Assembly (NCBI RefSeq): GCF_000348945.1
Contig: NZ_AOCK01000010.1
Coordinates: 62,001-126,000 of the forward strand
DNA from: Paeniglutamicibacter gangotriensis Lz1y
Lineage (GTDB): Bacteria; Actinomycetota; Actinomycetes; Actinomycetales; Micrococcaceae
DNA: 64,000 bases
Direction of reading: 5' to 3'
Shown: one piece after another, positions 49,490 to 62,087 of the stretch
Numbering within the stretch: position 1 is the stretch's first letter
Layout of the letters: every line of letters starts with the position of its first letter
The notes under the pieces: model-generated
What the model was told of the DNA's origin: nothing
Seen by the model: only the letters and a program-made list of their open reading frames with translations
Databases searched by the model: none
Translations under genes and position numbers: made by a program

Positions 49490-50347
49490 ATGAGTTCAGA
49501 AAAAAGTCCACCACTGCAGCGCGACCTCCCAGCAGTGTTCGGCAATCTCGGTTATGAAGTCTTGCCATTCAAAAGCACCGCGGAAAACGTCGTTACGTGG
49601 ATTCCAAAGAGTACTTGTCTGACAGTCACCGCTTCTCCACCAAAAGGTATTGAAGCGACAATTGCCTTGACCGAGCGCCTGGCTGCAGCGGGGTATCAGG
49701 TGGCGCCTCATCTTTCAGCACGCATGATCACGGACAAGGTCCAGCTCACTGAGATCGTGACACGTATGAAGGCATCAAACGTCAACGAGGTATTCGTCGT
49801 TGGTGGTGATGCCAAAGAGGCGGCCGGCGAGTTCCGAGACGGTTACGATCTACTGAAAGCGCTGGATGAGATCGGTCATCATTTCGGCGAAGTCGGTATC
49901 GGCGGCTATCCCGAAGGACATGCCTTCATCTCGCGAGCAAATCTTGCTAGTTCTCTGCGGGAAAAATCTGAACTCGCTACCTACATCGCCACACAGATCT
50001 GTTTCGACGCCAAGACCATCGCGTCATGGGCTCGTGAGGTTAAAGCAGATGGCGTCAACTTACCCATACGCGTGGGCATGCCCGGCGCGGTGACCAGACA
50101 AAAACTGTTGCGGATATCGATGGCTTCGGGCGTAGGCGATTCCGTGAATTTCCTCAAGAAGCAGCAGAACATGTTCTGGCGCTTCTTTGTCCCCGGGGGC
50201 TACAGCCCAGGCAAGTTGGTCAATGGGCTAAAGCCTTTCATCGGACAGCCGGATAACAACATTACTGACTTCCACGTTTTTACCTTTAATGAACTTGAAA
50301 AAACCGAGATATGGCGCCAAAAGTCGCTATTACGCTATTCCAAGTAA
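49490..50347 (+). CDS. metF: Methylenetetrahydrofolate reductase-family protein
   Basis: 285 residues of the MTHFR flavoprotein TIM barrel. It has TVTASPPKGIEATIALTERL, PHLSARMITD, NVNEVFVVGGD and GIGGYPEGH, the sites for FAD and folate. In Sphingobium, a metF next to ligM oxidises the 5-methyl-THF formed by O-demethylation. That direction (methyl-THF to methylene-THF) fits here, as the gene precedes the LigM-like demethylase by 37 bases. It is diverged from housekeeping MetF proteins and may be dedicated to this pathway. Confidence 0.85.
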   Translation: MSSEKSPPLQRDLPAVFGNLGYEVLPFKSTAENVVTWIPKSTCLTVTASPPKGIEATIALTERLAAAGYQVAPHLSARMITDKVQLTEIVTRMKASNVNEVFVVGGDAKEAAGEFRDGYDLLKALDEIGHHFGEVGIGGYPEGHAFISRANLASSLREKSELATYIATQICFDAKTIASWAREVKADGVNLPIRVGMPGAVTRQKLLRISMASGVGDSVNFLKKQQNMFWRFFVPGGYSPGKLVNGLKPFIGQPDNNITDFHVFTFNELEKTEIWRQKSLLRYSK

Positions 50348-50384
50348 ACCGTTGGCCATTGAGCCGGGAAGGATCTGAAGATCC

Positions 50385-59874: not shown

Positions 59875-61425
59875 GTGACTGATTTGGGACCTGCAGATGA
59901 CGGTTTGTCATTGAACCATGCGGACTTATGGGATGAAGCGCCCATAGGGATGGCGCTGCTGCGTGCCGACGGCACAATCCAAAAACTCAACCATGCTGGC
60001 CAACGCATTCTCAACGAAACATCAGATGATGGTGGAGGGTTGCGCTTTGACCTGACCCACCGCCGGGATACCGCAACACCTCACGGATTGGTCAGCTGGT
60101 CGGAAAGCCGGCATGCCAAAAATGGCGCCATCATCGAATTGTCCTGTCGCTCCGAACCGATGGAGGGCGGCTATTCACTGGTCTTTGAAGACGTCACTCA
60201 GCGCCGGCGCAGGGATCGCAGGGCAGCGGCGGTGGCGAGGATCGCCGCGGAACTTATCTCGGACCGTTCGCTTTCCTCGGTCTTGACCGCGTTGGCCTAT
60301 GAAATTTTGAAAGCTGACGGACTGGCCGGGGTCCAAATATTAACCGGCGATGCCGACTCCGGAAATTTACGGGTGCTGGGGATGGCCGGGTTCACCTCGC
60401 TCACCGGCGAACGATTCCTTGAGCGGCTCATGGAGTGCAAGCAGCGTGGTGCCCGTCTCTGCATGTTCGAAGTCATGGAATCCAGTCGCCTAGCGGTCAT
60501 GCCGCACCGGTATGCCGAAGTGATGTCGGATCCGGCGTGGGAACCGATGCATGAGGTCCTGCGGTTTCCGGTGTGGGATGCCTTCGCATCGCTGCCCATC
60601 ATTGTTCGCAACCAAACCATTGGGATCCTAAACCTGTATCTAGCCCCTGGCCTGAGTGTTGACAACGAGGATCTGGAGTTCTTTTCCACCATGGCGGTGC
60701 AAGCCGGTGTTGCCTTGGACTACGCGGCATTGCTGGAAAGCGAGCGGCGTTCGGCCGAGAAGGCCGAACGCCAGCGGCTGGCCCGGGACCTGCATGATTC
60801 CGTCGTGCAGGGTGCCTTCTCCATGCGCATGCAAGTACAGGCCCTCAAGGTGCTCACCGGCAGCGGAGAACTACTGGCCAACCGGAAGAAGATCGATACG
60901 ATCGCCGGGGAACTCGAGGAGATCTCCGGTGCGGTATTGAGCGACCTACGTAACCTCGTCCACAGAACAAAACCGGTCGCATTAATCGACAAGGGACTGG
61001 GCGCAGCACTACGTACCCTGGTGGCGAGCACTTCTCGACGGACCGGGATCGATGTTCAGATGCGGATTTCGGGGGAACTCGATCACCTCGGCCTTCCCAT
61101 GGCGGAGGACATCTATTTCATCGTTTCGGAAGCCATCCATAATGCCGTGAAACACTCTTCCACCGACCGCATTGACGTACTAGTCAACGCGTTCGAAAGC
61201 ACCGATAGTTTGCGCATCGTGATCAAAGACTTTGGTACCGCCTCGAACCGGCCCACTGGCGCTGGCACGGGTGATGGCATGTCTGGGAGGGGGATAGCCT
61301 TCATGAAGCAGCGGGCAAAAAACTGGAATGGCCTATTGGAGATAGTCTTCGATGAGGTGCACGGAACCACCGTTAGCTTGGAAATGCCATCGGCATCGGA
61401 AGAACATAGATGGGGCAGGGCATGA
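59875..61425 (+). CDS. PAS-GAF histidine kinase of the NarL/DesK type
   Basis: 516 residues from GTG 59875, without transmembrane segments, so a cytoplasmic sensor. Domains: PAS (about 18-110), GAF (about 125-285), HisKA_3 with the phospho-acceptor His307 in RLARDLHDSVVQG (about 297-365), and HATPase with EAIHNAVKHSS and GRGIAFMKQRA (about 400-505). It begins 24 bases after the aldolase gene and overlaps the response-regulator gene by ATGA. A cytoplasmic PAS-GAF sensor could bind a pathway substrate or sense redox. Confidence 0.9.
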   Translation: MTDLGPADDGLSLNHADLWDEAPIGMALLRADGTIQKLNHAGQRILNETSDDGGGLRFDLTHRRDTATPHGLVSWSESRHAKNGAIIELSCRSEPMEGGYSLVFEDVTQRRRRDRRAAAVARIAAELISDRSLSSVLTALAYEILKADGLAGVQILTGDADSGNLRVLGMAGFTSLTGERFLERLMECKQRGARLCMFEVMESSRLAVMPHRYAEVMSDPAWEPMHEVLRFPVWDAFASLPIIVRNQTIGILNLYLAPGLSVDNEDLEFFSTMAVQAGVALDYAALLESERRSAEKAERQRLARDLHDSVVQGAFSMRMQVQALKVLTGSGELLANRKKIDTIAGELEEISGAVLSDLRNLVHRTKPVALIDKGLGAALRTLVASTSRRTGIDVQMRISGELDHLGLPMAEDIYFIVSEAIHNAVKHSSTDRIDVLVNAFESTDSLRIVIKDFGTASNRPTGAGTGDGMSGRGIAFMKQRAKNWNGLLEIVFDEVHGTTVSLEMPSASEEHRWGRA

Positions 61426-62087
61426 GCAACGAAGAATCCGCGGCGCTGAGGGTGCTGATAGTCGATGATCATGCGATCGTCAGGAGAGGCATTGCTGCCT
61501 ATCTTGAGGTACTCGACGACATCGAAACCGTCGGACAGGCCGAGAACGGCCGTGTTGCCCTCGAAAGGTTGGCCGAGCTGGCAACCTTCGAAAGCCTGCC
61601 TGACCTAGTACTCCTGGACCTGATCATGCCCGTGATGGATGGCATGAAAACCCTCAAGCAGATCAAGGAAAAGTACCCTTCGGTCAAGGTCGTGATTCTG
61701 ACCAGTTTCGGCGAACCAGAGCGTCTGCACGAAGCCCTGCGGCAAGGGGCCCGAGGCTATCTGCTCAAGGACGCCGGCCCGGAAGATGTAGCAGCGGCAA
61801 TCCGCGCGGCCGCGCGCGATGAAGTGTATATCGACCCGGCACTGGCCTTGGATCTGACCAAATCATTTGCTTCTCCGCCCACCGGCATATCAACCCTGAC
61901 CGAGCGGGAACGCGATGTGTTGGTGCTGGTGGCTGAGGGACACTCGAATCAGGACATCGCCGGAAATCTGGGCATCAGCGAGCGGACGGCCCGGACCCAC
62001 GTGAGCAATGTATTGGGTAAATTGGGTGTCAGTTCGCGCACCCAGGCCGCCCTGACTGCAGTCAACGCGGGACTCGTTTCCCCCTAA
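61422..62087 (+). CDS. NarL/LuxR-family response regulator
   Basis: 221 residues from the ATG overlapping the kinase stop. Receiver domain (about 9-130) with VDDH, phospho-acceptor Asp66 (LLDLIMP), a conserved Thr in ILTSFGEP and Lys in YLLKDAG. A C-terminal LuxR HTH (about 155-215: LTERERDVLVLVAEGHSNQDIA) follows. It probably activates the upstream aromatic operon when phosphorylated by the neighbouring kinase. This is the last island gene before the DUF418 gene. Confidence 0.92.
   Translation: MSNEESAALRVLIVDDHAIVRRGIAAYLEVLDDIETVGQAENGRVALERLAELATFESLPDLVLLDLIMPVMDGMKTLKQIKEKYPSVKVVILTSFGEPERLHEALRQGARGYLLKDAGPEDVAAAIRAAARDEVYIDPALALDLTKSFASPPTGISTLTERERDVLVLVAEGHSNQDIAGNLGISERTARTHVSNVLGKLGVSSRTQAALTAVNAGLVSP

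Follow-up and report, generated by a model that had tools for sequence, protein, structure and literature searches.

In Pseudomonas sp. NGC7 syringate is degraded by VanA1B1, MgaABCD and GalDBC; deletion of mgaC makes 2-pyrone-4,6-dicarboxylate (PDC) appear, and MgaD was proposed to be the isomerase of 4-carboxy-2-hydroxymuconate (CHMA) (PMC12314914). Sphingobium SYK-6 and Novosphingobium DSM 12444 have DesA, LigM, MetF, LigH, LigAB, DesB/DesZ and DesCD; in the latter strain DesC and DesD were assigned the steps from 4-carboxy-2-hydroxy-6-methoxy-6-oxohexa-2,4-dienoate (CHMOD) to 4-oxalomesaconate (OMA) (PMC6888825, PMC8091115), and the one-carbon (C1) route of SYK-6 uses LigH (PMC6888825). 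In Arthrobacter 4,5-cleavage is already known, from a plasmid of Arthrobacter keyseri and from PcaA of Pseudarthrobacter Sphe3 (PMC8431788), with a different gene set. We analyse here a cluster of 13 genes that resembles each of these systems in part. It lies at 49490-62087, on the + strand, in a stretch of 64,000 nucleotides of Paeniglutamicibacter gangotriensis Lz1y (contig NZ_AOCK01000010.1), called the window below.

Gene set, proposed route and conservation

We favour, with moderate confidence, the view that this actinobacterial cluster reached its host by horizontal transfer and degrades 3-O-methylgallate (3MGA), from the syringyl (S) side of lignin, and probably gallate as well. The argument starts from the identities of the genes, the conservation of the set, the lack of LigC and LigI, one residue change and a predicted fold; the reactions, their substrates and order, and the regulation we infer. 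LigAB, with a C5 pocket widened by a methionine at LigA position 103, would open 3MGA to the methyl ester CHMOD, from which an alpha/beta hydrolase resembling SABP2 would release CHMA and methanol. A protein of the muconolactone isomerase family (MIase) would tautomerise CHMA/OMA; GalB would then hydrate and LigK cleave, down to pyruvate and oxaloacetate. The predicted roles of the hydrolase and of MIase are transferred from the logic of MgaC/MgaD and DesC/DesD. LigM, an enzyme that transfers the methyl group to tetrahydrofolate (THF), would demethylate 3MGA to gallate and vanillate to protocatechuate. MetF and PurU, which together with FolD lead to formate, would dispose of this C1 unit and free the folate, FolD coming from elsewhere. 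Finally the MHS carrier would import the aromatic acid, and the GAF kinase/NarL pair would govern expression.

Profile searches, together with structure-database and translated comparisons, confirm the 13 genes, with the place and single strand given to them by the first-pass annotation. The latter was right about the THF-dependent O-demethylase and its C1-handling genes, LigAB, GalB/LigK and a two-component system proper to the cluster, and went in the right general direction with a methoxylated lignin monomer as substrate. As for its PAS-GAF kinase, the GAF domain stands, with HisKA_3 and HATPase, but no PAS match was listed. The features are as follows, percentages being identities to the copies found in Rhodococcus opacus (see below).

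49245-49493, +, probable C-terminal fragment of a DesA-like demethylase, 82 codons (blastx; unlisted in the first-pass annotation)
49490-50347, +, divergent MetF, methylene-THF reductase family (PF02219, 38 bits; 52%)
50385-51791, +, LigM, THF-dependent vanillate/3-O-methylgallate O-demethylase (NF047885, 898 bits; 73%)
52654-53559, +, PurU, formyl-THF deformylase (TIGR00655, 391 bits, cut-off 286)
54020-54376, +, LigA, alpha subunit (PF07746; alignment to 1b4u)
54369-55220, +, LigB, catalytic subunit (PF02900, 235 bits; NF009903, 388 bits, cut-off 317; 1b4u, E 2e-98)
55244-56560, +, MHS-family proton symporter (TIGR00883, 422 bits, below the cut-off of 443; 66% to the cluster's MFS gene)
56593-57303, +, alpha/beta hydrolase of the SABP2-methylesterase/hydroxynitrile-lyase type (conserved residues; AlphaFold2 model)
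57363-57638, +, MIase, the CatC-like protein of the first-pass annotation (PF02426, 112 bits)
57642-58382, +, short-chain dehydrogenase/reductase (SDR) (PF13561, 173 bits; 61%)
58421-59149, +, GalB, hydratase of OMA/2-keto-4-carboxy-3-hexenedioate (KCH), PIG-L fold (best match 5cgz, E 3.5e-71)
59146-59850, +, LigK/GalC, 4-carboxy-4-hydroxy-2-oxoadipate (CHA) aldolase (TIGR02798, 315 bits, cut-off 304.5; NF006731, 333 bits)
59875-61425, +, GAF histidine kinase, HisKA_3 (PF07730, PF13185, PF02518)
61410-62087, +, NarL/LuxR-type response regulator (PF00072, PF00196)

The starts of LigA (54020) and GalB (58421) were revised by the gene finder. For PurU we prefer the GTG at 52654 over the open reading frame and gene-finder start at 52528, and for the hydrolase the TTG at 56593 is kept as the putative start, against 56728 in the gene finder, because homologues align there. 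From ligA onwards, up to and including the response regulator, the genes follow closely on one another (-16 to 59 bp between them with the revised starts). MetF-ligM and purU are set apart: a blastx search of the spacers, about 0.9 kb for ligM-purU and 0.46 kb for purU-ligA, against the set of cluster proteins returned nothing at E<0.1. By tblastn of the 64-kb window, no homologue of FolD, LigC or LigI was found in it, and a scan for promoters and terminators did not rise above shuffled sequences (4 against a mean of 6.5, and 11 against 12.3).

A single stretch of 29 kb on pRop44186_a, a plasmid of R. opacus DSM 44186 (NZ_CP082159.1), contains homologues of all 13 genes at 39-73% identity. The set was therefore not put together in its host from unrelated pathways; the first-pass annotation had supposed an assembly of parts from different pathways in an Arthrobacter-like bacterium. 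In a genome of the same family (G273; codes in G stand for genomes, G000 being that of Lz1y and of the window, and codes in L for loci) ten genes—ligA, ligB, MHS, hydrolase, MIase, SDR, galB, ligK, kinase and regulator—keep the order of the window. Loci of the same type were found in Modestobacter, Blastococcus, Klenkia, Geodermatophilus, Nonomuraea, Streptomyces, Prauserella, Pseudonocardia and others. We retained 29 loci, that of the window included, by gene content around LigM matches and, for nine more, by LigB identity, so that the counts are not those of a random sample; several loci end inside the cluster, some genomes are drafts or metagenome-assembled, and the open reading frames of the comparison loci (LigA, LigB etc.) were called with a custom gene finder. 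For ligM, purU, ligAB and galB, whose co-occurrence in Micrococcaceae the first-pass annotation had suggested searching for, the counts among the 29 loci are LigM 25, LigA 27, LigB 25, PurU 18 and GalB 10; the other counts are regulator 26, hydrolase 25, MIase 25, kinase 23, MetF 20, LigK 16, DesA-like demethylase 12, SDR 9, MHS 9 and FolD 8, the last being too low since L063 has FolD by Pfam. In even samples, 24 of 395 family genomes have a LigB at E<=1e-90, ten of them with 76-100% and 14 with 52-54% identity, as do 4 of 396 genomes from the phylum, Lz1y counted in both; the neighbourhoods read in the family were those of all nine other genomes at 76-100% and of 4 of the 14 at 52-54%. In the LigB tree the window stands in a branch of ten rows of its own family, the Micrococcaceae (support 100/96), and the branch joining all 24 rows of its type is weakly supported (75/55). 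Judged from these sequences, the set is a conserved actinobacterial cassette, much of which recurs across families. Among the matches listed, literature titles and abstract openings gave no description of this cluster, and no paper on that of pRop44186_a.

Substrate of the pathway and competing explanations

LigC and LigI were searched with the proteins of the A. keyseri pcm operon, whose closest structures identify them as PmdC/LigC (E 3e-141) and the PDC hydrolase LigI (E 4e-105); LigJ, the 4-oxalomesaconate hydratase of the same operon, was named likewise (E 8e-171). At E<=1e-50, LigC is found in none of the 25 genomes of the window's type, Lz1y included, against 4/4 pcm-type genomes; at E<=1e-30, LigI is found in 3/25 (G179, G021 and G024, not in Lz1y) against 4/4. 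The loci L071, L077, L100 and L148 stood outside these genome searches, and their fetched stretches contain neither gene. Besides, PcaH is above cut-off in 31 of the 32 genomes searched, including that of Lz1y where an adjoining weaker match is likely PcaG, and VanA_C-domain proteins are encoded elsewhere in the Lz1y genome; vanillate and protocatechuate therefore have another route in this host. Lz1y has a LigAB-type dioxygenase but lacks LigC and LigI, and gene content indicates that the cluster is not the known protocatechuate 4,5-cleavage pathway.

The dioxygenase itself keeps in LigB the residues H12, H61 and E242, which we take to be the iron ligands of LigAB, as well as H195. Its LigA differs at position 103 (SYK-6 numbering, by alignment to 1b4u), which is Met in the window and in 24 of 25 rows of its type, the last being Val (L143); 24 of these rows were aligned (Met 23, Val 1), L036 (Met) was read afterwards, and LigA of L050 ends short of this position. 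In pcm-type rows the residue is Phe (2/5) or Tyr (3/5), SYK-6 having Phe; four other rows have Met (L148, which also has the hydrolase-MIase pair), Tyr (L005), Phe (L083) and Val (L074). In SYK-6, Phe103 of LigA governs the selectivity at C5, and numerous substitutions there boost the activity on gallate and 3MGA (PMC10094722). The gallate-specific DesB has Glu at the equivalent position (PMC3962378); the enzyme of the window does not belong to this type, having Met instead of Glu and two subunits instead of a single chain.

In the hydrolase S77, D101 and H214, which are triad-like, are invariant in all ten aligned sequences. For its AlphaFold2 model (pLDDT 84.7, nine sequences as input) the closest fold is a SABP2-like hydrolase from a bacterium, followed by the SABP2 methylsalicylate esterase, hydroxynitrile lyases, the pyrethroid hydrolase PytH and the methylesterase MES16; we predict a CHMOD methylesterase. 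MIase belongs to PF02426 and yet fails the CatC muconolactone delta-isomerase model TIGR03221 (80.4 bits, cut-off 130.6); E27, R45 and H65 are invariant in 11 sequences, and we predict a CHMA/OMA tautomerase. Of the 29 loci, 24 have both genes, 23 of them with fewer than 200 bp in between, an adjacency that fits consecutive steps.

Several observations weigh against the proposed 3MGA pathway. The effect of Met103 on the C5 pocket is an extrapolation from other substitutions, and the fold of the hydrolase also resembles hydroxynitrile lyases and other hydrolases. In the DNA examined the hydrolase is missing from 4/29 loci and MIase from 4/29: both from L032, L043 and L065 (the first two being short contigs, L065 having full flanks), the hydrolase alone from L066 and MIase alone from L142. 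The pcm-type locus L149 has, about 2 kb from its operon, a hydrolase and a MIase (15314-16326) that are only distantly related (49% and 53%), and LigI does occur in three genomes of the window's type. The PrpF-family isomerase LigU/GalD, converting OMA to KCH, is represented in Lz1y by just a weak match of 232 codons (52 bits summed, family cut-off 27), so that one step rests on MIase or on chemistry. Finally, direct cleavage of 3MGA needs no LigM, which is in the operon, and the DesA-like enzyme being fragmentary, VanA is a candidate source of 3MGA in the host.

A rival reading, which we consider unlikely, is a pathway for gallate only: LigM would convert 3MGA to gallate, LigAB gallate to OMA, MIase would replace LigU/GalD, GalB and LigK would finish, and the hydrolase would act upstream on an outside ester of gallate or syringate. 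No enzyme of the set is better supported than LigM (898 bits), and the chemistry of MIase, an allylic proton shift, suits the isomerisation. An isomerase is needed moreover, as apart from the weak match of G000 no PrpF was found in seven genomes with GalB in the cluster (the other six being G273, G060, G016, G019, G026 and G485). However, MIase is kept where PrpF is present: in L027, whose PrpF directly follows LigK, in seven further genomes of Geodermatophilaceae, and also in G365 and G025, genomes that combine a GalB in the cluster with a PrpF; MIase as a plain replacement of LigU/GalD is thus rejected. The adjacency to the hydrolase, and a Met in place of the Glu of the gallate-specific DesB (PMC3962378), also speak against a gallate-only route. 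As MIase occurs with and without PrpF, it more likely works chiefly with the hydrolase, although in Lz1y it may also serve OMA. In three Geodermatophilaceae loci (L027, L046, L066) LigJ, at 66-69% to that of A. keyseri, is present instead of GalB, with MIase kept in 3/3 and the hydrolase in 2/3; the final steps of the pathway look exchangeable.

Quite improbable is a protocatechuate 4,5-cleavage with substitute enzymes, where LigM would yield protocatechuate from vanillate, LigAB 4-carboxy-2-hydroxymuconate-6-semialdehyde (CHMS), and the SDR, the hydrolase and MIase would be respectively CHMS dehydrogenase, PDC lactonase and OMA isomerase. The three unassigned enzymes do equal the missing steps in number, and the related enzymes of SYK-6 and Pseudarthrobacter act on protocatechuate, PcaA of Sphe3 being specific for it with 44% activity on gallate (PMC8431788). 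But the SDR is found in just 9/29 loci, position 103 is neither Phe nor Tyr, and PcaH points to the standard protocatechuate route in 31/32 genomes. The lack of LigC, the presence of PcaH and VanA-type proteins elsewhere in the genome, and Met103 also go against vanillate, one of the substrates named in the first-pass annotation, as the main one.

That the GcvT-fold protein would be an ordinary aminomethyltransferase, in a cluster unrelated to methoxylated aromatics, is hardly credible and was rejected: the fold is the same and the Lz1y genome has a third match, 32% identical, but the protein exceeds by far the curated cut-off of the LigM equivalog (580) against 30-78 bits with GcvT models, and matches the SYK-6 LigM structures (5tl4) at E 1e-223, which contradicts the refutation that the first-pass annotation had envisaged.

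Demethylases, folate genes and acquisition

LigM is not essentially a sphingomonad protein: at E<=1e-100 it is present in 8/15 genomes of the genus, Lz1y included, and Lz1y has elsewhere a second, genus-typical LigM. In a quick tree of 110 rows, 94 rows, the window's and other actinobacterial LigMs (by record title), form one branch (SH-aLRT 100), with SYK-6 and four further proteobacterial rows outside; a recent import from sphingomonads is thus rejected. Within this tree the LigM of the window is not firmly placed among cluster-type LigMs. The second LigM (73% identity; locus L093, 8024-16613, contig G000:C1) has a VanA_C-domain oxygenase about 4 kb away, so that both kinds of demethylase are close together; with them are a reductase-like and an MFS-like gene (named by eye) and a MetF that is hardly discernible, at 24.5 bits. 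The MetF of the window is itself very divergent: it passes PF02219 (cut-off 24) but fails TIGR00676 (50 bits, cut-off 294).

The reading frame at 49245-49493 has no Pfam match. By blastx it aligns with residues 353-434 of the 437 of a paralogue in L046 (35% over 82 aa, E 1e-8) and with the intact DesA-like demethylase of R. opacus (30% over 76 aa, E 2e-6), whose gene sits directly before metF, the place of the fragment here. It is probably the decayed gene of a second GcvT-fold O-demethylase. "DesA-like" is the strongest fitting name because four such cluster proteins score 546-569 bits with the DesA model, below its cut-off of 800. VanAB of R. ruber R1 converts syringate to 3MGA (PMC9867520); with no intact DesA-like enzyme, any use of syringate by the host may depend on VanA.

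On the R. opacus plasmid (locus L100, NZ_CP082159.1, 468751-497599) genes for folate synthesis and a formate dehydrogenase-like oxidoreductase surround the demethylases: the cluster carries FolD, and adjoining it are folE, folP, pabB, a ligase of the FolC family (286 bits, cut-off 163), an FdhF/YdeP-family oxidoreductase and FdhD. FolP and PabB are each found in 4 of the 29 loci, R. opacus counted in both. The folate genes beside the cluster may supply the demethylase cofactor. A wider proposal, more tentative than the pathway itself and which we would not yet bet on, is that of an actinobacterial S-lignin cassette joining THF-dependent demethylation to a meta-cleavage that bypasses CHMS and PDC, methanol being released by the SABP2-like esterase and CHMA/OMA isomerised by the MIase-family protein. 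The R. opacus plasmid would carry the most complete version, with folate synthesis of its own and a C1 branch running down to CO2, the demethylase cofactor being made and emptied by one mobile unit.

An insert of 27.5 kb (34686-62314) contains the operon. It is bounded by a 109-bp direct repeat, whose two copies are 84% identical and which is the duplicated 3' end of the right-hand gene:

34686-34794, +, left copy (3' end of the HGSNAT_cat gene)
62206-62314, +, right copy, inside the 3' end of gene 62205-63449

In the relatives G007 and G004 the site is empty: the homologues of 34199-34585 and 62205-63449 are about 100 bp apart, against 27.6 kb here. In 7/8 relatives the 62205 gene stands between dapB-like and RNase J-like genes (named by eye) with no operon matches; in the eighth, G003, just the dapB-like gene and its neighbour are visible in the 20 kb fetched. 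The insert, with a GC content of 0.575, and the operon, with 0.562, both fall below their surroundings (0.61-0.65), and a LigB of this kind (E<=1e-90) is missing from the other 14 genomes of the genus. The pathway was thus probably acquired horizontally. No integrase was recognised among the part of the island's genes that were scanned. A plasmid location was rejected, the right flank having recA-, miaA- and ftsK-like genes (by eye) and the relatives sharing the chromosomal order. The island also carries a second aromatic-catabolism cluster (35064-45735), with a catechol-2,3-dioxygenase-like protein (248 bits, cut-off 320), two FAH-family hydrolases, an FAD monooxygenase, an amidohydrolase, a sugar-type ABC transporter ATPase and a LysR regulator.

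If the proposed pathway is right, actinobacteria, known soil users of lignin aromatics, would have a route for syringyl units that LigA Met103, together with the hydrolase-MIase pair, clearly distinguishes at sequence level from the protocatechuate pathway; two generically named protein families would receive functions, and lignin upgrading new dioxygenase and esterase parts. Current annotation conceals this route: in R. opacus LigM is a "hypothetical protein" and LigA a "protocatechuate 3,4-dioxygenase". The plasmid version raises the testable question of catabolic units with their own cofactor synthesis.

Comparison with described systems

With NGC7 the cluster shares a LigAB-like dioxygenase, acting there on 3MGA, GalB and GalC; the authors of that work found no LigI. 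An alpha/beta hydrolase is present in both, that of NGC7 being MgaC for CHMOD, though the two are likened by description and not by sequence (PMC12314914). On the other hand, LigM and C1 genes stand here in place of the Rieske enzyme of the NGC7 cluster; the isomerase is of the MIase family instead of SnoaL-like (NTF2), no SnoaL/NTF2 protein being found among the 13 genes; GalD is not in the cluster; and control is by a two-component system instead of another regulator.

SYK-6 and DSM 12444 also have LigM and MetF in one operon, and LigAB (PMC6888825, PMC8091115). Compared with these sphingomonads PurU takes the place of LigH and GalB that of LigJ; DesB, LigC and LigI are not in the cluster; the DesA-like gene is just a fragment; and MarR/LysR control is found there.

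Closer in taxonomy, the pcm operon of the A. keyseri plasmid pRE1 and PcaA of Pseudarthrobacter Sphe3 share with the window the family Micrococcaceae, a type II extradiol dioxygenase and LigK. The pcm operon, however, has a fused LigAB with Phe103, LigC (a Gfo/Idh oxidoreductase), LigI and LigJ (amidohydrolases) and a LysR regulator, and the 19 kb of A. keyseri examined contain no LigM, MetF, PurU, hydrolase, MIase or GalB. The R. opacus cluster of pRop44186_a, on the contrary, has homologues of all 13 genes, plus an intact DesA-like demethylase, folD, folE, folP, pabB, the FolC-family ligase, FdhF/YdeP and FdhD.

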